A stretch of DNA of 36,497 bases from Clostridia bacterium (GTDB lineage: Bacteria; Bacillota; Sulfobacillia; SLMV01). The translations under genes and the position numbers were made by a program. Position 1 is the first letter of the stretch. The number at the start of each line of letters is the position of its first letter. Location: positions 1 through 36,497 of the forward strand of contig PUMM01000057.1 in assembly GCA_003551365.1 (NCBI GenBank), written 5' to 3'. Of this stretch, positions 15,757 through 28,059 are shown in pieces. The notes beneath the pieces are model-generated. The model ran no database searches. It was not told the origin of the DNA and saw only the letters and a program-made list of their open reading frames with translations.

Positions 15757-16479
15757 GTATGCCCGGCATGGGCGAATGCTGAGGGGTGAAAGTCCCCTGT
15801 GGGCCGTGGCCACGTAGGACCACTAGCTGAAGGCAAGGGTGCCCGCGGTGACGCGGGATCTGAAGGAAGTTGGAGGCAAAACCGCGACCCGTGGAGCACG
15901 AACCCTGGACGAGGCGTGACGGACTGGGCGAGTCTGCCAAACAAGACGAAGCCCCATATTGGCCGAAGGTTCGTTGCGTAAACAGCGCGGGTGTGCGGGG
16001 AAAGTATTCGCTCTTACCCGGGGAGGCCTGTCGACCCCGTCGGTGAGAACTGACAACCCGTGCTATGAGGTATGGCTGAGGCGGCAGGAGTCAGTAGACG
16101 TCATAGTGTGCAGGAGCAGTTATCGGGGTATGGAGGGGAGATTGAGGCACTGTCAACCGAAAGGGGCAGTTCCAGTTGGGCCCCACCTAATCCCTGTTGC
16201 TGAGCCCTGCGGAAGGACCGAACATGAACGAGAGGATGGAGTCCGTGAGTTCGCAGGATGCTCCCAGACAGCAGAAAACTCCCCATGGAGCCGACCTTCA
16301 GGAGGAGACGGTGAATCCGTCAGGGCCTGAAGGCGGGCCGAGTGCATCCCCGGCACGACTGGGAGAGCCATCCCGCGAGGTAGACTTGCTATTCGTCAAC
16401 GTGCATGAACCGCCGGATGCGGACCCGCATGTCCGGTGGTGCGGGGGAACGGCGGGGGCGACCCCGCCTTCTACCCGAT
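15757..16479 (+). mobile_element. Group IIC intron, ORF-deleted
   Basis: The RNA is recognisable along its length as a bacterial class C group II intron: 5' end GTATGCCCGGCATGGGCG, then GGGTGAAAGTCCCC, AAGGCAAGGGTG, GATCTGAAGGAAG, CGAAGCCC and CTTACCCGGGGAGG segments of domain I, which follow the Oceanobacillus iheyensis intron closely as I remember it. Domain V is intact at about 16408-16441, a hairpin with the class C triad CGC at 16411-16413 and a two-base bulge. Domain VI follows (GGCGGGG/CCCCGCC), and the 3' end is CTACCCGAT. It lies 10 bases behind the frd operon terminator, the usual target type of this class. Only about 50-60 codons of the domain IV ORF remain, so it cannot move without a helper protein. 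Confidence 0.85.
16224..16400 (+). pseudogene. Remnant of intron-encoded reverse transcriptase (N-terminus only)
   Basis: Inside intron domain IV an ATG at 16224 follows GGAAGGACCGAAC and opens a frame that runs straight into domain V. Its polar N-terminal stretch (MNERMESVSSQDAP...) resembles leader segments of some intron proteins, but no reverse transcriptase, maturase or endonuclease motif is present. Most of a protein of usually 400 or more residues is missing, so I read this as a deletion remnant. Confidence 0.55.
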
Positions 16480-20062: not shown

Positions 20063-20537
20063 GGTCGGACAGCCGGGATATGGAGGCAGGTTTCATCGGG
20101 TCGCCTCCCCTGGCGCCCGGGCCAGATTATGGGTCCGCCGTGTTGAACTCACCCTGCGGGACAAGGCGCAGAGGTAGACGGCTGAGCCGTCTGTGTGCTG
20201 TGCGCGGCGATTTCACTGGTCCGACGGTTCATCTTCCGCTTCGGGTGAAGAGAGAACCCGGGCGGGCTCGTCGGTTGACCCCGGCACCTGATGCTCATCA
20301 GTTGGCTGCCGGCTGAATCCACCGATGTGGGCCATTTCCTTCAGGTAGAGCCCCCACATGAACCGATCATTTGCGGGACGACGGGAGACGTTGAGAGTCT
20401 GCTGTGCAGCCATGTGCGCGCCATCGGTGCAAGATCTCGTATGTGTACCGATTATACGGGTAGGTGGTGCTCATTGGAGATACAGATCGCCCGACACAGT
20501 CGTTGTTCTGGTGAATCCAGAGAGGGGAGTCATTACG
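20063..20537. other. Intergenic region upstream of the SLH protein
   Basis: About 475 bases. The reading frame of the next gene is open upstream to 20358, but that portion lacks a ribosome site and precedes an obvious signal peptide, so it is treated as leader. No clear promoter, terminator or RNA was recognised. Confidence 0.35.
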
Positions 20538-22415
20538 GTGAAAGACAGAAGCAGGAGAAGCCCCCGGTGCCCACATTTCTGGATGGCTGCGACATTCATT
20601 GTGCTGGTCACTCTTATGCCGGCCGCTACATATGGGGTGGGTGGGGAGATTGAAAGGGAGCCATTTGATGATGTGCCTTCGGATCATGAATCATTCGACG
20701 CCTTTGCAGCTCTCTATGTGCTGGGCATATTTACCGGCTACGGCGACGGCACTATGGGACCGGCAGATCCCCTGTCGCGACAGGAATATGCCAGGGTCGC
20801 CGCGGCCGCAGTTGACGCAGGAGATCTGGCCCGCAAATTGGCTGAGGAGAGGCCGGACTTCCAGGATTCGGAGCATATCTCTGACTGGGCGTTTGGGTGG
20901 GTCCGCGCCGCTGTGGAGATGGATTTGATTGATGGCTATCCCGACGGGGAGTTCAAACCACATGCTGACATCAGTTTCTCCGAGGCGGTTACCATGTTGC
21001 TGCGTGTGACGGGGTACGCGGAACACGTCGGCGATGCAGCTAACTGGCCCGATGCTCAGTTGGAGACGGCGTCGCAAATCGGACTCATTGATGAGATTCC
21101 CCATGATATGGGAGAGGCGATCTCCCGCAGCACGATGGCGCAACTGGTCTACAGTGCACTGCAGATCAATCCTCCCGATACAGCCACCGGTCGTCCCGAC
21201 CCAGACGGCAGCCCAATGATCGAAAAATACCGCACCGAAGGACGGGTAGACGAGAGTCGTCTTGCCGATCGGGTGCTGCTCCTGGGAGCTGGTTCACTGG
21301 AAGAGGTGCGCGGCCATGAGCTGCAAATGCTGAAGACGCCGGAGAATGACATTGGGTTGATCCAAATGACGGAGGAAGAGGAAGCCGACGCTCCAACTGG
21401 TGAGTGTGACCGGGGTGCAGTGCAGTATTACGAAAAGGAAATGACGGTCGACGATGGCACGGGCACGGCGCAGGTGGTGCAAGTGAATCTTTCCGATCCG
21501 GACCTTACCGTCGCTGCGGCTATGTCGCACGATAGGCTGGGAGACGCTGAGAGTTTTTCTGACATGGTAGATAGAGAGAACGCACTCGCCGCGATCAATG
21601 CTAACTACTTTCACTCCGAGGGGAATCTCGAACCCATTGGAACAGTTGCCAGTGACGGGGAGGTTCATCTCATGGAGGGCGGGCAGGTGAATGTAGGATT
21701 CACTGAGGACAATGACGTTTTCTTCAATGAGAAAGCTCCCCTCGTGCGCGGCAAACTGAAGGACGCAGGGGGCGAAGAAATCGCTACGTGGAGTGCATGG
21801 ATGGTCAATGCTTTACACGCAGATGAAAACACCATGGCCATTTTCACCCCGCACAGAGGCGAATCGGTTGAGATCGAGGCCGAGGGCAAAGCCTTCATCA
21901 TCCGGGACGGCATTATTCGGGATAATGTGGTTACGCCCGGCAAGGTGGATATTCCAGCGGATGGGATGATCATCTTCTGCGGTGCGGAGATCACCGGTGA
22001 AAGCGGTGAGCACATCTATGATCGATTCTCCATAGGTCGGAGGGTGACTCTCTCCTACTCGTTCAGTGGTGCCCCGGATGAAGCTGCCAGGTTCTGGCAC
22101 GAGTCACAGGAGATAATTACTGCAGGACCCAGGCTGCTTCGTTCCGGTCGTACGGATGTAGCAATCCATGCGGCGAGTGAAGAGGACAGGCGTGGGGGGA
22201 GCCGCCGGAGGAGCGCTCTGGGTGTATCTGATGACGAGCTCTTTCTCGTGAGCGTCAAATCTGCGACATACTCTGAGCTGGCCAGAGTGATGAAGGGTCT
22301 TGGTGCCGTTGATGCAATAAGTTTGGATGGAGGGGCATCCAGTGCCCTCTATCACGACGGAGAGATCAAGGTTACGCCCGGACGGGAGTTGAGTACTATT
22401 CTGCTGGTGCGCTGA
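20538..22415 (+). CDS. Exported SLH-domain protein with phosphodiester glycosidase (NAGPA) domain
   Basis: The 625-residue product begins with a signal peptide (basic start, then MAATFIVLVTLMPAATYG). Three S-layer homology repeats follow: FDDVPSDHESFDAFAALYVLGIFTGYGDGT, then FQDSEHISDWAFGWVRAAVEMDLIDGYPDG, and a weaker third ending AISRSTMAQLVYSAL. These anchor proteins to secondary wall polymers in Firmicutes. The second half (about residues 290-625) is a phosphodiester glycosidase (NAGPA-type) domain: INANYFHSEGNLEPIG, a middle beta-rich region, and the C-terminal SLDGGASSALYHDGEI. It would cleave a sugar phosphodiester in cell-wall or capsule polymer outside the cell. The GTG at 20538 follows GAGGGGAG and puts the signal peptide at the N-terminus. 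Confidence 0.9.
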   Translation: MKDRSRRSPRCPHFWMAATFIVLVTLMPAATYGVGGEIEREPFDDVPSDHESFDAFAALYVLGIFTGYGDGTMGPADPLSRQEYARVAAAAVDAGDLARKLAEERPDFQDSEHISDWAFGWVRAAVEMDLIDGYPDGEFKPHADISFSEAVTMLLRVTGYAEHVGDAANWPDAQLETASQIGLIDEIPHDMGEAISRSTMAQLVYSALQINPPDTATGRPDPDGSPMIEKYRTEGRVDESRLADRVLLLGAGSLEEVRGHELQMLKTPENDIGLIQMTEEEEADAPTGECDRGAVQYYEKEMTVDDGTGTAQVVQVNLSDPDLTVAAAMSHDRLGDAESFSDMVDRENALAAINANYFHSEGNLEPIGTVASDGEVHLMEGGQVNVGFTEDNDVFFNEKAPLVRGKLKDAGGEEIATWSAWMVNALHADENTMAIFTPHRGESVEIEAEGKAFIIRDGIIRDNVVTPGKVDIPADGMIIFCGAEITGESGEHIYDRFSIGRRVTLSYSFSGAPDEAARFWHESQEIITAGPRLLRSGRTDVAIHAASEEDRRGGSRRRSALGVSDDELFLVSVKSATYSELARVMKGLGAVDAISLDGGASSALYHDGEIKVTPGRELSTILLVR

Positions 22416-22553
22416 GTGGCGGGGCAATCCGCTCTTCTGCAGACCCCCGATGGGAGCGGAACCGCAGTCCAAAATGGGGGTGCCGGGAGCCCTCCGCCCT
22501 TTACAGGCACGGGGGGTTGTGATATAAGCTCTTTAACATTGCAAAATACCAAA

Positions 22554-22808
22554 GGCAATGTGCGGGAGTAGTATCTGCCAGATCCGGGCGGCAGCGAGTC
22601 GGGGATAGTGTGAGCCCGACCCTCAGGAAGGCGGTGAATGGACCCGTGAGCCGCAGGTCGAAAGGCATTTGCCGTGTAGGCCGAGCCGGAACCTCTACCG
22701 TTATATTGAGGCAGGTGTGAACTCGCACCTGGCCGAGAGGAGCGCGGATTGTGCTCCATATGGGTGGCACCACGGAACCTTCCGTCCCATGGGGACGGGA
22801 GGTTTTTG
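22554..22808 (+). promoter_or_regulatory. T-box leader, tRNA-Trp type, controlling trpE
   Basis: A full T-box RNA. The basal Stem I helix pairs GGCAATG (22554-22560) with CATTTGCC (22666-22673). The specifier region reads GTGAA-TGG-ACC, giving codon TGG (22639-22641) for tryptophan. Stem III is GGAGC/GCTCC, and the T-box sequence GGGTGGCACCACGG is at 22762-22775. Uncharged tRNA-Trp should stabilise the antiterminator and allow transcription of trpE-trpG. The codon choice agrees with the downstream genes. A second T-box/terminator unit follows immediately. Confidence 0.9.
22776..22807 (+). terminator. Terminator of first T-box
   Basis: Stem AACCTTCCGTCCC / GGGACGGGAGGTT (13 bp, one G-T pair), short loop, then a T-tract at 22803-22807. 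Its 5' arm begins right after the T-box sequence, as expected for mutually exclusive terminator and antiterminator. Confidence 0.9.
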
Positions 22809-22948
22809 CATGTGCGAGAGATAGTGGCCAGGCGCATCAGCGGTATTCACACCGCAGAGAGGGGTTGTGCGGGTGGTCATGGTTGACCCGCAGATCCAAA
22901 CAGGGTGGTACCGCGGTACGTCCGTCCCGGTCGGGGCGGACTTTTTTT
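22809..22948 (+). promoter_or_regulatory. Second T-box unit with missing or ultrashort Stem I
   Basis: A second T-box sequence GGGTGGTACCGCGG at 22903-22916, preceded by a Stem III (TGCGGGT / ACCCGCA, about 22867-22892) and followed by its own terminator. Only about 95 bases separate it from the first terminator, too little for a normal Stem I. The room is filled by two small hairpins: GTGCG/CGCAT, with loop containing TGG, and GCGGT/ACCGC. Either the unit reads tRNA through an ultrashort Stem I or it depends on the first unit's Stem I. Confidence 0.8.
22920..22948 (+). terminator. Terminator of second T-box unit
   Basis: Stem GTCCGTCCC / GGGGCGGAC (one G-T pair) with a four-base loop and a run of seven T (22942-22948), 34 bases upstream of the trpE start. 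Confidence 0.92.
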
Positions 22949-22982: not shown

Positions 22983-24467
22983 GTGTTATATCCAGAACTG
23001 GAATCATACATTGAGTTGGCGCAGGAGGGAGGGGTAATACCCCTGTATGCAGATATCATGGCCGATGAACACACCCCGATATCGCTGTATCGCACGCTGC
23101 GTAGTGAGTCGCCCTCTTATCTGCTGGAGAGTGTAGCTGGAGGAGAACAGGTGGCACGCCATTCCTTCATTGGCATTGAACCCTTTGCCAGTTTCACCTG
23201 CAGGGACGGCCAGGTGGAGGTGTCGGGCCCGAGTGAGGTCGAGCTGCCGGAGGATCCCTTTGACGCCCTGCGCGCCTGGACTGAATACTACACTCCGGGG
23301 CCTCAGACGCAGGCCTTTGCGCGGGAGCATCTACCTCCATTTTTTGGCGGCGCAGTGGGATACCTCGGTTATGAGATGGCCGCTCACATCGAGGACATCC
23401 CCGTTGCAGCTGCCCGGGCGGTAGACGTACCCGACAGTCAGTTCATCATGTCGCACCTGGTCGCAGCTTTTGATCATGCCACCAACCGAATCAAGTTGAT
23501 AGTCAATACCCTGCCGGGCCAGGATCCCGAACGAACCTACCATTGTGCCGGGGAGACCGTGCAGAGAGTGTTGCGAAGTATGGAGAAGGCATCTCCGCAA
23601 TGTGAGGAGTCCTCGCCGGTAGCCTCCCTTGAGCCTGCGAGCAATGTGCGCAGAGAGGATTTCACTGCTCAGGTGCAGCGGGCCCGGGACTACATTCGCG
23701 CGGGAGACATCTTTCAGGTGGTCCTATCTCAGCGGTTGGAGGTGCCCCTCAGGACCTCCAGTTTCACGGTTTATCGGCACCTGCGCTCTCTGAACCCATC
23801 GCCCTACACTTTCTATCTCGATCTGCCAGATGTAACGCTGGTGGGGTCCTCGCCGGAGCTGTTGGTAAAGGTGGTGGATGGAGTGGTGGACACCAGACCC
23901 CTCGCCGGCACGCGACCCCGGGGTAGCGATGACGCGCAGGACAGGTTACTGGAGGAAGAACTGCGGAGTGATGAAAAGGAACGCGCAGAACACATCATGC
24001 TGGTGGATCTCGGTCGCAATGATGTGGGTCGCGTCGCACAGTACGGAAGCGTCCGCGTCCCCGAATTGCTCGGTGTGGAACGATACTCACATGTGATGCA
24101 CCTCGTCTCGCACGTGCAGGGAAATCTGTGCCCGGACATGGACGCCATTGACGCGCTCAAGGCCTGCTTTCCCGCCGGGACCCTGTCGGGAGCACCGAAG
24201 GTGCGGGCCATGGAGATAATCGCCGAGATGGAATCTGAACAGAGGGGTCCGTACGGGGGAGCCGTGGGATATCTGGGGTTCTCCGGGAACCTGGATAGCT
24301 GCATCATCATCCGCACTTTAATCATCAAGGACGGCCGCGCCTACATTCAGGCTGGCGCAGGAATTGTGGCTGATTCCGATCCACAGAAGGAGTATGAGGA
24401 GACGCTCAGCAAGGCGAGTGGACTGCTGGCCGCCCTGGAACAGGCTGAGAGGAGCGTGCTCCCGTGA
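22983..24467 (+). CDS. trpE: Anthranilate synthase component I
   Basis: TrpE, 494 residues, converts chorismate to anthranilate with ammonia from TrpG, the first step of tryptophan synthesis. N-terminal region carries the LLES motif (residues 47-50) of the tryptophan feedback site. The C-terminal chorismate-binding domain shows VLSQRLEVPL, TLVGSSPELLVKV, RPLAGTRPRG, HIMLVDLGRNDVGRV, GTLSGAPKVRAMEII, and YGGAVGYLGFSG. GTG 22983 follows GAGAGGAGCAGAGACC; the open frame upstream lies within the T-box terminator. Control is by the tandem T-box just upstream and probably feedback inhibition. Para-aminobenzoate synthase PabB is the related alternative, made unlikely by the LLES motif and the tryptophan T-box. 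Confidence 0.95.
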   Translation: MLYPELESYIELAQEGGVIPLYADIMADEHTPISLYRTLRSESPSYLLESVAGGEQVARHSFIGIEPFASFTCRDGQVEVSGPSEVELPEDPFDALRAWTEYYTPGPQTQAFAREHLPPFFGGAVGYLGYEMAAHIEDIPVAAARAVDVPDSQFIMSHLVAAFDHATNRIKLIVNTLPGQDPERTYHCAGETVQRVLRSMEKASPQCEESSPVASLEPASNVRREDFTAQVQRARDYIRAGDIFQVVLSQRLEVPLRTSSFTVYRHLRSLNPSPYTFYLDLPDVTLVGSSPELLVKVVDGVVDTRPLAGTRPRGSDDAQDRLLEEELRSDEKERAEHIMLVDLGRNDVGRVAQYGSVRVPELLGVERYSHVMHLVSHVQGNLCPDMDAIDALKACFPAGTLSGAPKVRAMEIIAEMESEQRGPYGGAVGYLGFSGNLDSCIIIRTLIIKDGRAYIQAGAGIVADSDPQKEYEETLSKASGLLAALEQAERSVLP

Positions 24468-25078
24468 TTGTTGTCCTGGATAACTATGATTCCTTCACCT
24501 ATAATCTCGTGCAGCTCCTCGGAGAACTGGGAGCCGAGCTGCACGTTGTGCGCAATGACCGCATCACAGTAGATGAGATCCGGGCCATGAATCCGCAGCG
24601 GATTGTCATCTCTCCCGGCCCCGGGATCCCCGATGACGCTGGGATCAGTGTTGAGCTAATCCGCAGCCTGGGTCCGCAGATTCCGATTCTCGGTGTCTGT
24701 CTCGGGCATCAGGCCATCGGCAGGGCCTACGGGTGCCGCGTGGGCCGGGCCCCCGTCCTCATGCACGGAAAGGCTTCGCATATAACCCACGACGGCCGGG
24801 GACTCTATCGCAATTTGCCCAACCCATTTCTGGCCACTCGCTACCATTCTCTGGTTATAGACGAAACCACGCTCACGCCACAGCTGCAGGTGACAGCCAG
24901 GGATTCCGCGGGTATTGTGATGGGAATCAGACACAGAGAGTACCCGGTGGAGGGCGTGCAGTTCCACCCTGAGTCGATATTGACCCGGGAAGGGGAGCGC
25001 CTGCTGAAAAACTTCTACCGAACAGAAGCCGAACGACGCCGGCCCGGCGACCGGGAGAGTGCAGATCCTCAGCACTGA
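24464..25078 (+). CDS. trpG: Anthranilate synthase component II (glutamine amidotransferase)
   Basis: Glutamine amidotransferase, 204 residues, supplying ammonia to TrpE. Class I triad visible: Cys79 in GVCLGHQAIG, and His167 and Glu169 in VQFHPES. The oxyanion segment SPGPGIPDDAG lies at 50-60, and DNYDSFTYNLVQ at 6-17 is typical. GTG 24464 overlaps the trpE stop (GTGA), so the two subunits are translationally coupled. No trpD, trpC, trpF, trpB or trpA gene follows, which is unusual; a PabA-like dual role in folate synthesis is therefore possible. The C-terminal 20 residues are polar and not conserved. Confidence 0.94.
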   Translation: MIVVLDNYDSFTYNLVQLLGELGAELHVVRNDRITVDEIRAMNPQRIVISPGPGIPDDAGISVELIRSLGPQIPILGVCLGHQAIGRAYGCRVGRAPVLMHGKASHITHDGRGLYRNLPNPFLATRYHSLVIDETTLTPQLQVTARDSAGIVMGIRHREYPVEGVQFHPESILTREGERLLKNFYRTEAERRRPGDRESADPQH

Positions 25079-25341
25079 TGGTGGGGAGGCGGCTGGCCCT
25101 CCGTCCCTCCAGTGGGGGTCCGAGAGCCCAGCTGAAGTTACCCGAGACCTTCTGTATTCGCCGCTGGCTGCTGATATCGGCCACTGCAGATGTGCGTACT
25201 GACTCCGTACGTTCCCTCCCTATTGTGACTGCGGGACACGCCCACCCACCTGCAGCGGGGGATTCACGCAGGGCTGCGCAGGACATTCGCGCATGAGAAT
25301 GGAATGCATGGCATGAACAGTCTGGTGGGGTGATACCATTG

Positions 25342-28059
25342 GTGACGCTGATGAAGACGAAGTATCAGATGCCTCCGCTGCCTGCAGGTCTCCTGCGGCG
25401 CGATGATCTGTGCGCCAAAATGGAGGAGGGCCTGTCGTCGGATGACCGGTTCATGCGCAAACTCACCCTCGTCTCAGCTCCTGCCGGTTACGGGAAGACT
25501 ACGGCAGTCCTGCAGTGGCTGGATACGCACCGCTCCCGCGTGGCCTGGGTTTCTCTTGATGAGGGAGATAATGAGGGCAGGATGTTCTGGTCCTACTTCC
25601 TTCGAGCCATGGCGGAGATCGATGACCGCGTAGGTGCCGAATCGGGCGAGTACCTACAGGCGGTAACTGCTCAGCTGCCGGGCACAGGTGGCGCACGGGC
25701 GGACGGTCGGAGGTTTGTGCAGAGGTTCGTGAATGAACTCGCCCTCAGCCGCTCGCCGATCATTGTCGTTCTGGACGACTACCACGTCATAGAGGATTGC
25801 ACCATACACGATGCAATGGCTACGCTCCTCACCCATTTGCCCTCCACTGTTCACCTGGTGTTGGTGACGCGAGCCGATCCCCCGCTGCGTCTGGGACGTC
25901 TGCGCGGGCGGGGCGAGGTAAGTGAGATACGGGGGGACGACCTTCGCTTCGATGAGCGGGCCGCTGGCCAGTTGCTCCGACGACTGACGGGGGCCGAACT
26001 TCCCTGCAGGGATATCTCCCGTCTCATCCAGCACACCGAGGGCTGGGTAGCCGGGCTCAAGATGTTGGCCCTGTCCCTGCAGAGAGTCAGTGACCCATCC
26101 CGCCTCATCGACGATATGGCGCGGGAGAATCGTTACATCTTCGAGTATCTCATGGATGAGGTGTTGGGGCAGCAGCCGGAGGAAGTGAGAGAGTTCCTGC
26201 TGCAAACGGGGCCCCTGGATAGCTTCACGCCCTCGCTGTGCAGGAGAGTGACCGGCATGAGCGGGGCGCGGGACATGATAATGCAGCTTTACAGGCGCAA
26301 TCTGTTCATCAATCGGCTCGATGGCTCCGGGAGGTGGCATGCTTACCATTCGCTCTTCACGACAATCCTGCGCCACCAGCTGGCCCGCGATGCACCAGAG
26401 CAGCTCTCCCGCATACTCTGCTCGGCGGCGGAGTGGTACGAGGAGCAGGATATGATCCCCGATGCCGCCAGCGCGCTCCTGCGGGCCGAAGACCACGTGG
26501 GGGCAGCGAGACTTCTCGACCGATGGGGGGAGAACCTGTGGTTCGAGGGCGGGGGTGCCACTCTGCTTCGCTGGCTGGATGCTCTGCCGGATGAGCTGGT
26601 GCAGCAGTATCAACGGCTCAGTGCGATTTATGCCTTCCTGCTGCTGGCGAACATGCGCACCTCCCGGGTGGAGACCTTTTTGGCTGCAGCTGAGGGGGAG
26701 GGTCCGGACGGTGAGCGGGAGGAGGAGCTGCCGGATTCACCAGTTCGTCTATCCCCGCGCGAGGGCAGAGGAGTTACCCGGGCGGTGCGGGCACACATGG
26801 CCGGATTTCGCGGCGATGCGGAGGGATTTTTGCGGTCCGCTCGGGGGATCATGCGGCATTTTCAGCGGAGGTCCATCTGGCGCCCCATAGCTGCCACCGT
26901 TGCCGCTGATGCGGCGGAGTGGGAGGGTGATGTGCAGCAGTCGGACCAGATGTTCCGGCTGGCACTGGAGGACGGATGGGCGATGAAGAATCCGTTTTTC
27001 TGCCTGATGGCCGGCAACAGGCTGGGCTTCATGAAACTGAGGGATGCGCGGCTGGGTGAGGCCACCGATGTTGTCAGGGGGCAGCTGGAGTTTGCCGCGC
27101 AGGCCGGATTTGCTGACGAACCGCGCGCCGGAGGACTGTGGACGCTCATGGGTGAGGTGAAAAGAGAACAGAACGACCTGAGAAGGAGTGAACAACTCAT
27201 TGCACGCGGGCTCGAGTTGAGTCGGGAGGCGACGGTGGGTGTGCGCAGCTGGTGTGACGTGTGCCACGCCCGCCTTCTGCTGTCACTTGGGCGGCTGGAT
27301 GAGATGGAGAACCTGCTGGGTCAGATTGAAACCTCGGCATATGGTTTGCTGGCCTGGATCGACCGACAGGTCACCGACCTGCGGGCGCTGATGGCCCTGC
27401 AGCGCGGCCAGTACTCGCGGGCAGAGAACTTACTGCGCCAGCATCTCACCGCGGCCGAACCCATCGGACCCTGGTACGATACCACTCATCTCGTGGGTGC
27501 CCGGCTGCATCTGGCCGGAGGAGAAACGGGTAAGGCACATGCCCTACTCCAGTCCATGCTGGAGTACTGTTTGCACAAGGGATCCAGGAGGGGCCGGATG
27601 GAGACCGATATGTTGATGGGGCTTTCACTTTATGCTGAGGGGCAGGTAGACGCAGCTATGGAGCATATGGCCTCTGCCCTGCGCGTGGCTGCGCCCGAGG
27701 GGTATGTGCGGCTCTTCGCGGACGAGGGAGAAGCGATGAGAGGCGTGTTGGCCGAGGCGGAGAAACGGGGCATCTTCCCCGATCACGTAGTCCGCCTGCA
27801 GTCGGCCATCGCCCAGGATGAGGTGAGGAATGATGTCTGCAGCGGTGATTCTGACCGAGGCGCGGATCAGTTGAGCGAAAGAGAGCTGGAAGTGCTGCAG
27901 CTGCTGGCCCGGGGGCATTCCAACCGGCAGCTGGCCGAGAAGCTGTTCATCTCCGAAAATACAGTGAAGTGGCATACCAGCAACATATATGGGAAACTGT
28001 CGGCGGCAAATCGCACTGAGGCAGTCAGGATGGCGCGAGAACGCGGCATCGTGCAATGA
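25342..28059 (+). CDS. MalT/LAL-type LuxR family transcriptional regulator
   Basis: A 905-residue regulator of the LAL (large ATP-binding LuxR) class. N-terminal STAND-type NTPase: Walker A APAGYGKTT at about 47-55 and Walker B VVLDDYH at about 143-149, followed by an arginine-containing sensor region (LVTRADPPLRLGRLR). A long helical repeat region resembling TPRs spans about 350-830. The C-terminal LuxR helix-turn-helix is clear: LSERELEVLQLLARGHSNRQLAEKLF then ISENTVKWHTSNIYGKL. It should sense a small ligand and activate target promoters; neither ligand nor targets are known. GTG 25342 lies seven bases after GGGGTGAT; other in-frame starts at 25330, 25339 and 25351 are possible. It stands alone on its strand after trpG. 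Confidence 0.9.
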   Translation: MTLMKTKYQMPPLPAGLLRRDDLCAKMEEGLSSDDRFMRKLTLVSAPAGYGKTTAVLQWLDTHRSRVAWVSLDEGDNEGRMFWSYFLRAMAEIDDRVGAESGEYLQAVTAQLPGTGGARADGRRFVQRFVNELALSRSPIIVVLDDYHVIEDCTIHDAMATLLTHLPSTVHLVLVTRADPPLRLGRLRGRGEVSEIRGDDLRFDERAAGQLLRRLTGAELPCRDISRLIQHTEGWVAGLKMLALSLQRVSDPSRLIDDMARENRYIFEYLMDEVLGQQPEEVREFLLQTGPLDSFTPSLCRRVTGMSGARDMIMQLYRRNLFINRLDGSGRWHAYHSLFTTILRHQLARDAPEQLSRILCSAAEWYEEQDMIPDAASALLRAEDHVGAARLLDRWGENLWFEGGGATLLRWLDALPDELVQQYQRLSAIYAFLLLANMRTSRVETFLAAAEGEGPDGEREEELPDSPVRLSPREGRGVTRAVRAHMAGFRGDAEGFLRSARGIMRHFQRRSIWRPIAATVAADAAEWEGDVQQSDQMFRLALEDGWAMKNPFFCLMAGNRLGFMKLRDARLGEATDVVRGQLEFAAQAGFADEPRAGGLWTLMGEVKREQNDLRRSEQLIARGLELSREATVGVRSWCDVCHARLLLSLGRLDEMENLLGQIETSAYGLLAWIDRQVTDLRALMALQRGQYSRAENLLRQHLTAAEPIGPWYDTTHLVGARLHLAGGETGKAHALLQSMLEYCLHKGSRRGRMETDMLMGLSLYAEGQVDAAMEHMASALRVAAPEGYVRLFADEGEAMRGVLAEAEKRGIFPDHVVRLQSAIAQDEVRNDVCSGDSDRGADQLSERELEVLQLLARGHSNRQLAEKLFISENTVKWHTSNIYGKLSAANRTEAVRMARERGIVQ

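Follow-up and report, generated by a model that had tools for sequence, protein, structure and literature searches.

Translational T-boxes with an ultrashort Stem I are known from ileS in Actinobacteria. T-boxes with duplicated terminator-antiterminator elements, called partially tandem, were reportedly described by Vitreschak and colleagues in 2008. The portion of a 2020 review considered here (PMC7583486) mentions these partially tandem T-boxes and gives their mode of action as unknown; following Li et al. 2019, it defines the discriminator as the RRRxG motif, Stem III, AA and the antiterminator, which sense aminoacylation. Fully tandem T-boxes are expected to give a digital, pseudo-cooperative output, according to the sections of PMC12452182 consulted, and the excerpted description of the TBDB (PMC7778990) includes a class II model for ultrashort Stem I, translational T-boxes. 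The window, i.e. the whole stretch of 36,497 nucleotides that was analysed (contig 187 of a 2.78 Mb assembly, G000), carries upstream of trpE an arrangement that belongs to the known partially tandem T-boxes, by a class definition that we applied to 62 loci. We propose, with a probability of roughly two in three, that a single tRNA-Trp decoder would here serve two aminoacylation checkpoints in series, the discriminators being swapped by co-transcriptional strand exchange.

Results

All coordinates refer to the forward (+) strand of the window. Unit 1 (22549-22792) is a complete Trp T-box leader with Stem I, Stem II, Stem IIA/B, Stem III and antiterminator, matched end to end by RF00230 (model positions 1-219, E 8.3e-20) at 88.1 bits, which is below the curated gathering score of 93. 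The specifier codon TGG (22639-22641) is assigned by its position in the Stem I specifier loop GGTGAATGGACC (22633-22644) and by the same context in relatives, and it fits the regulated pathway, as this loop lies upstream of trpE. Between Stem IIA/B and discriminator 1, directly 5' of the latter, folding gives a linker hairpin (22712-22731) formed by the A arm CAGGUGUG, the loop AACU and the A' arm CGCACCUG. Discriminator 1 (22735-22771) was located by positions and by the RRRxG-Stem III motif in the part of PMC7583486 used here; it comprises GAGAG, Stem III (22739-22757) and, again by position, T-box 1, GGGTGGCACC (22762-22771), with UGGC. Terminator 1 (22777-22807), which has a 12 bp stem by inspection and 5 U, competes in the sequence with antiterminator 1 (22762-22788); its U-tract is short, and it is not called by the consensus terminator scan that calls terminator 2. 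The original prediction of a complete Trp T-box with specifier TGG and a terminator is therefore confirmed, and so is the second T-box and terminator that it placed about 95 bases further on, with 95 nt between the end of terminator 1 and T-box 2.

The leader precedes trpE (22983-24467), which encodes anthranilate synthase component I (Pfam PF00425 and PF04715) from a GTG start predicted with the help of an alignment with relatives, and a gene for a trpG-type glutamine amidotransferase (24464-25078; Pfam PF00117). Directly after trpG, positions 25330-28059 encode a MalT-like LuxR-family regulator of 909 aa, and on the other side a 685 aa protein with S-layer homology and phosphodiester glycosidase domains (20358-22415) ends just before the leader. 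Parts of a group II intron are present at 15842-16479 (RF02001, 133.3 bits; RF00029, 45.9 bits).

Stem I, Stem II and Stem IIA/B are all missing from unit 2, and Rfam recovered no T-box part within it at E<=5, in agreement with the prediction that a covariance search would find no normal Stem I there. It does, however, carry a discriminator. The upstream part of discriminator 2 (22857-22902) consists of GAGAG (22857-22861), Stem III (22862-22897) and AAACA, a layout seen also in the relatives G006, G002, G005 and, by eye, G001. It is followed by T-box 2, GGGTGGTACC (22903-22912, with UGGU), and antiterminator 2, both read from the sequence and together spanning 22903-22928, and antiterminator 2 is overlapped by terminator 2 (22920-22948), called by the scan with 9 bp and 7 U. 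Unit 2 thus shows each element of the discriminator definition in the portion of PMC7583486 at hand, i.e. RRRxG, Stem III, AA, the T-box bulge and antiterminator/terminator. As it has all discriminator features but no decoder, unit 2 is, as judged from its sequence, a second aminoacylation-sensing discriminator without a decoder. The Stem III that had been predicted for unit 2 is present, whereas the separate mini-hairpin with TGG in its loop is not: this hairpin is Stem III itself, and the TGG at 22880-22882 sits in the Stem III loop.

The motif before Stem III reads GAGAG in the window, GAGAG in G001, GAGUG in G006, GAGCG in G002 and GAGUG in G005; that of G001 was read from the sequence, the scripted check having chosen the wrong place there. 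Therefore GAGxG (x = A, U, C, U) is kept in these four trpE-leader relatives, while the Stem III arms differ. The five family members examined share a unit 2 with T-box, GAGxG, Stem III and overlapping antiterminator and terminator but no decoder, and the segment that precedes discriminator 2 retains little apart from complementary strands. In the window this segment can also fold into a local mini-hairpin (22840-22855; GCGGU/ACCGC with the loop AUUCAC), an alternative to the exchange.

The complementarity of unit 2 to the linker had no place in the original prediction. Unit 2 starts with the B' strand, GGCCAGGCGC (22826-22835; p=0.024 against mononucleotide shuffles), which forms 9 of 10 pairs with the A' arm and spacer of unit 1, GCACCUGGCC (22725-22734). 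The A'' strand, UUCACACC (22846-22853), is the perfect complement of GGUGUGAA (22714-22721), which is the A arm with two loop bases, and GAGAG lies three bases downstream of it. In relatives the letters vary and the pairing is retained, with 39/40 cells paired and five columns changed on both sides, in an eight-column layout chosen by eye and with one bulged G002 base, whose partner is not contiguous, set aside. Over nine loci, with hairpin halves set by hand from unit 1, the linker 5' arm and loop pair with their own strand before the unit 2 GAGxG at -141.4, against -92.6 for permuted partners (0/20000); when only the family's five trpE leaders are used, 2/120 permutations reach the own pairing, the true one included. 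Within the family, A':B' pairing shows conservation rather than covariation (25/120 permutations reach the own value). The cofold gain of the window is -2.6 kcal, no better than shuffles (p=0.31); the corresponding values in relatives are p=0.67 (G006), 0.20 (G002), 0.05 (G001) and 0.02 (G005). Energy evidence for exchange from the window alone is weak.

A pattern of two spaced T-boxes occurs in 24/154 genomes of the class (three spacing patterns, matching 14, 8 and 4 genomes with overlaps), and the reversed-pattern control gave 0 in all, so that the double motif does not arise by chance; the G005 leader was added by hand beyond the pattern matches. Two patterns run on 398 genomes sampled from the phylum matched 12 and 25 of them, and 31 distinct genomes among these lie outside the class. 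We read 62 loci, i.e. the window and 61 others (27 from the class, 11 + 24 from the phylum), and all have one specifier domain with two terminator-antiterminator modules. Upstream of trpE the double motif is present in 9/28 loci with enough upstream DNA, out of a set of 30 loci that includes the window's own and two too short to judge (L051, L057). A contig scan based on TrpE gave distant loci, and a motif scan of those 80 revealed no half-tandem leader. The genome of the window holds a second half-tandem leader, upstream of trpD (G000:C96:430-797). A further T-box on its contig C162 (L008, 423-694) has the GAATGGACC context (Trp), with one discriminator seen, and precedes a short reading frame and another that resembles a membrane permease. 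In G008, two T-box motifs 374 nt apart upstream of trpE (L055) probably form a fully tandem T-box.

The specifiers of the 62 loci are Trp in 26, Phe in 27 and Tyr in 6, with 3 unread (L165, L166, L168), and 24/27 class loci read as Trp, under a codon pattern limited to Trp, Phe and Tyr. Half-tandem leaders accordingly read almost only these three; because the pattern allowed no others, other amino acids cannot appear. Two half-tandem leaders before an aminotransferase-like gene (L166 in G028 and L165 in G059) are probably serine T-boxes by eye. Downstream proteins were compared with NCBIfam for 30/62 loci, with many of the matches below the model's curated cut-off and none for L166; those named comprise trpE, trpD, a TrpB-like enzyme, DAHP synthase and TrpX-type binding proteins, together with PaaK-type ligases, Na/solute symporters and one peptide-type binding protein.

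A variant occurs in other lineages: the 5' strand of Stem III is missing from unit 2, which pairs instead with the 5' arm and loop of Stem III in unit 1. Over 18 such loci from 11 genera, own pairing amounts to -147.1 against -94.6 (0/2000), with hairpin halves again set by hand from unit 1, because automatic Stem III picking by folding was noisy. The split of loci into types A and B was made by eye after reading them, and within type B the loci L159, L163, L166 and L170 clearly fail to exceed shuffles, several others being marginal. A wide-window test free of hand choices was borderline for the class loci (274/5000) and, with slightly changed windows, gave 92/5000 for the first 11 phylum loci. 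For a held-out test, regions and scoring were fixed on the 11-locus phylum script before unseen loci were sought. In the 24 unseen loci from 14 genera, own pairing reached -320.7 kcal against -233.4 kcal for deranged pairs (sd 13.4; 0/5000), so that own pairs beat between-genus pairs sharing the same duplicated hairpin, and the cofold gain of the same loci was -126.9 against -59.4 (0/3000). Since copying a hairpin in itself yields partial complementarity to the original, a spacer test was run on the linker helix end and the spacer up to the purine motif, the spacer part lying outside the hairpin. Against the start of unit 2, these regions gave -183.5 for own and -123.1 for other pairs (0/5000) in 20/24 loci from 13 genera, L195, L196, L197 and L218 being left out as the rule found no purine motif in them; in G443, 12/12 pairs form. 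The longest exact sense copy averages 7.10 for own and 6.02 for other partners, and the longest antisense match 6.85 and 5.42; as the sense copy is as long as the antisense match, traces of duplication are present too. Long duplex predictions across whole regions were uninformative. Taken at sequence level, unit 2 appears to contain a strand that complements either the linker or Stem III of unit 1 and covaries between lineages. Unit 2 of L184 (G287) contains a 14 bp complement that spans the GAGAG purine motif of unit 1 and would dismantle discriminator 1.

The base that follows UGG in a T-box is expected to fit the discriminator base of the tRNA. In 33/33 Phe or Tyr loci, this N base is U in both T-boxes, while the 26 Trp loci have, for unit 1/unit 2, C/C in 18, C/U in 6 and U/C in 2. 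The tRNA-Trp carries G73 in 5/5 family genomes in which ARAGORN found it; therefore UGGC would pair with it, and UGGU, as in unit 2, would form a G-U wobble. No tRNA-Trp was found in the window's own assembly, which is incomplete, and a strict pattern for tRNA-Trp had no match in 8 genomes, whereas a looser one gave matches. According to the part of PMC7778990 consulted, the TBDB records U at the N position in 46% of Trp T-boxes. The N base of T-box 2 is thus, on these base identities, a predicted fit to the same tRNA as that of unit 1.

Discussion

The observed anatomy, its conservation and the long-range complementarity across genera suggest a model in which the exchange, its order and the tRNA response of unit 2 are proposed. 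The first step would be that of any standard T-box: with uncharged tRNA-Trp on Stem I, antiterminator 1 would be stabilised and RNA polymerase would pass terminator 1, charged tRNA leading to termination there. The emerging B' strand would then pair with the spacer and the 3' arm of the unit 1 linker hairpin, after which A'' could capture the freed 5' arm and loop. Such a four-strand exchange would place discriminator 2 where discriminator 1 stood, behind the same decoder. T-box 2 would put the bound tRNA, or one that has replaced it on this Stem I, to a second test, and trpE would be made only if both tests read 'uncharged'. In the variant from other lineages, the partner of unit 2 in unit 1 would be the 5' arm and loop of Stem III instead of the linker. 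The original prediction had offered a duplicate antiterminator that uses the codon reader of unit 1 as one of two readings, and the discriminator without a decoder, the fitting N base and the complementary strands argue for it. Beyond the window, we lean slightly towards a design widespread in Bacillota and nearly restricted to aromatic amino acids, in which one decoder would serve two platforms in turn through a programmed, toehold-led exchange in the nascent RNA. This would amount to kinetic proofreading in RNA form, with one tRNA checked two times before trp, phe or tyr genes are expressed.

A decoder could also be shared without any exchange, if the acceptor end of the tRNA hopped to T-box 2 through RNA flexibility and the complementarity were left over from duplication. 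Partial duplication is the likely origin of unit 2, duplicated hairpins are self-complementary to some degree, and the exchange is near energy-neutral in the window, all of which this explanation accommodates. We consider it unlikely, however, since own pairs exceed between-genus pairs with the same duplicated hairpin (0/5000), and the complement extends to loop and spacer bases beyond the hairpin arms and varies with them. That the pairing is real but serves another purpose, e.g. locking the transcript after readthrough or tRNA release rather than presenting the tRNA again, would explain why B' can pair right up to the unit 1 purine motif and why the 14 bp match of G287 covers this motif. Yet a complete second discriminator follows A'' by a few bases, as in unit 1, and would be useless if the tRNA were only released, which makes another purpose very improbable.

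Two further explanations concern unit 2 itself rather than the pairing. The unit could be a decayed T-box, now a tRNA-independent terminator that merely lowers basal expression, as its missing decoder and its escape from Rfam would allow; against this stand the T-box, GAGxG, Stem III and antiterminator/terminator overlap kept in five members with Stem III variable in sequence, and the similar units in many genera of the phylum, and we regard decay as distinctly improbable. The original prediction also considered that unit 2 might be an ultrashort-Stem-I T-box in its own right, with a codon in the loop of a mini-hairpin. The window does have a hairpin ahead of Stem III with UUC within its loop AUUCAC, and a tRNA with A73, for example tRNA-Phe, would match UGGU. 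Nevertheless, neither the hairpin nor its loop sequence is conserved in G001, G006, G002 and G005, these relatives do not retain the TGG either, which is part of the Stem III loop, and Rfam gives no match, so that this reading of the prediction fails and we find it scarcely credible. An ultrashort Stem I for Trp was rejected on the unconserved TGG inside the Stem III loop. The combination of UGGU (A73) with a Phe codon, UUC, in the loop of the mini-hairpin was dropped because the UUC letters belong to the strand complementary to unit 1, because the mini-hairpin is not conserved, and because U at the N base is reported in 46% of Trp T-boxes (PMC7778990, in part).

The preferred reading, a shared decoder with strand exchange, would provide partially tandem T-boxes with a concrete, testable mechanism, and it names the bases to mutate. 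No description of strand-exchange pairing was found in the literature searched, a set that excludes two main older papers on T-box evolution. If the reading is true, one sensor drives two platforms in series, an arrangement absent from the tandem-riboswitch schemes in the parts of PMC12452182 and PMC9481103 consulted. Unit 2 shows, in addition, why searches with whole-T-box models miss the second half of such leaders.

The fully tandem trp T-boxes of Bacillota resemble these leaders in having two T-boxes in series upstream of trpE/trpD, as presented in the sections of PMC12452182 used here; in those schemes, however, each unit has its own aptamer, and one aptamer with two platforms does not appear in them. 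The ultrashort Stem I T-boxes of ileS likewise combine a reduced upstream domain with a normal discriminator, but unit 2 of the window is without a conserved codon loop and its output is an intrinsic terminator. Unit 2 matches the T-box discriminator domain of Li et al. 2019, as defined in the portion of PMC7583486 available, but without an adjacent decoder. The partially tandem T-boxes also have one specifier domain followed by two antiterminator/terminator modules; compared with that class as outlined above, the loci described here show strands in unit 2 whose complement lies in the linker helix or in Stem III of unit 1.
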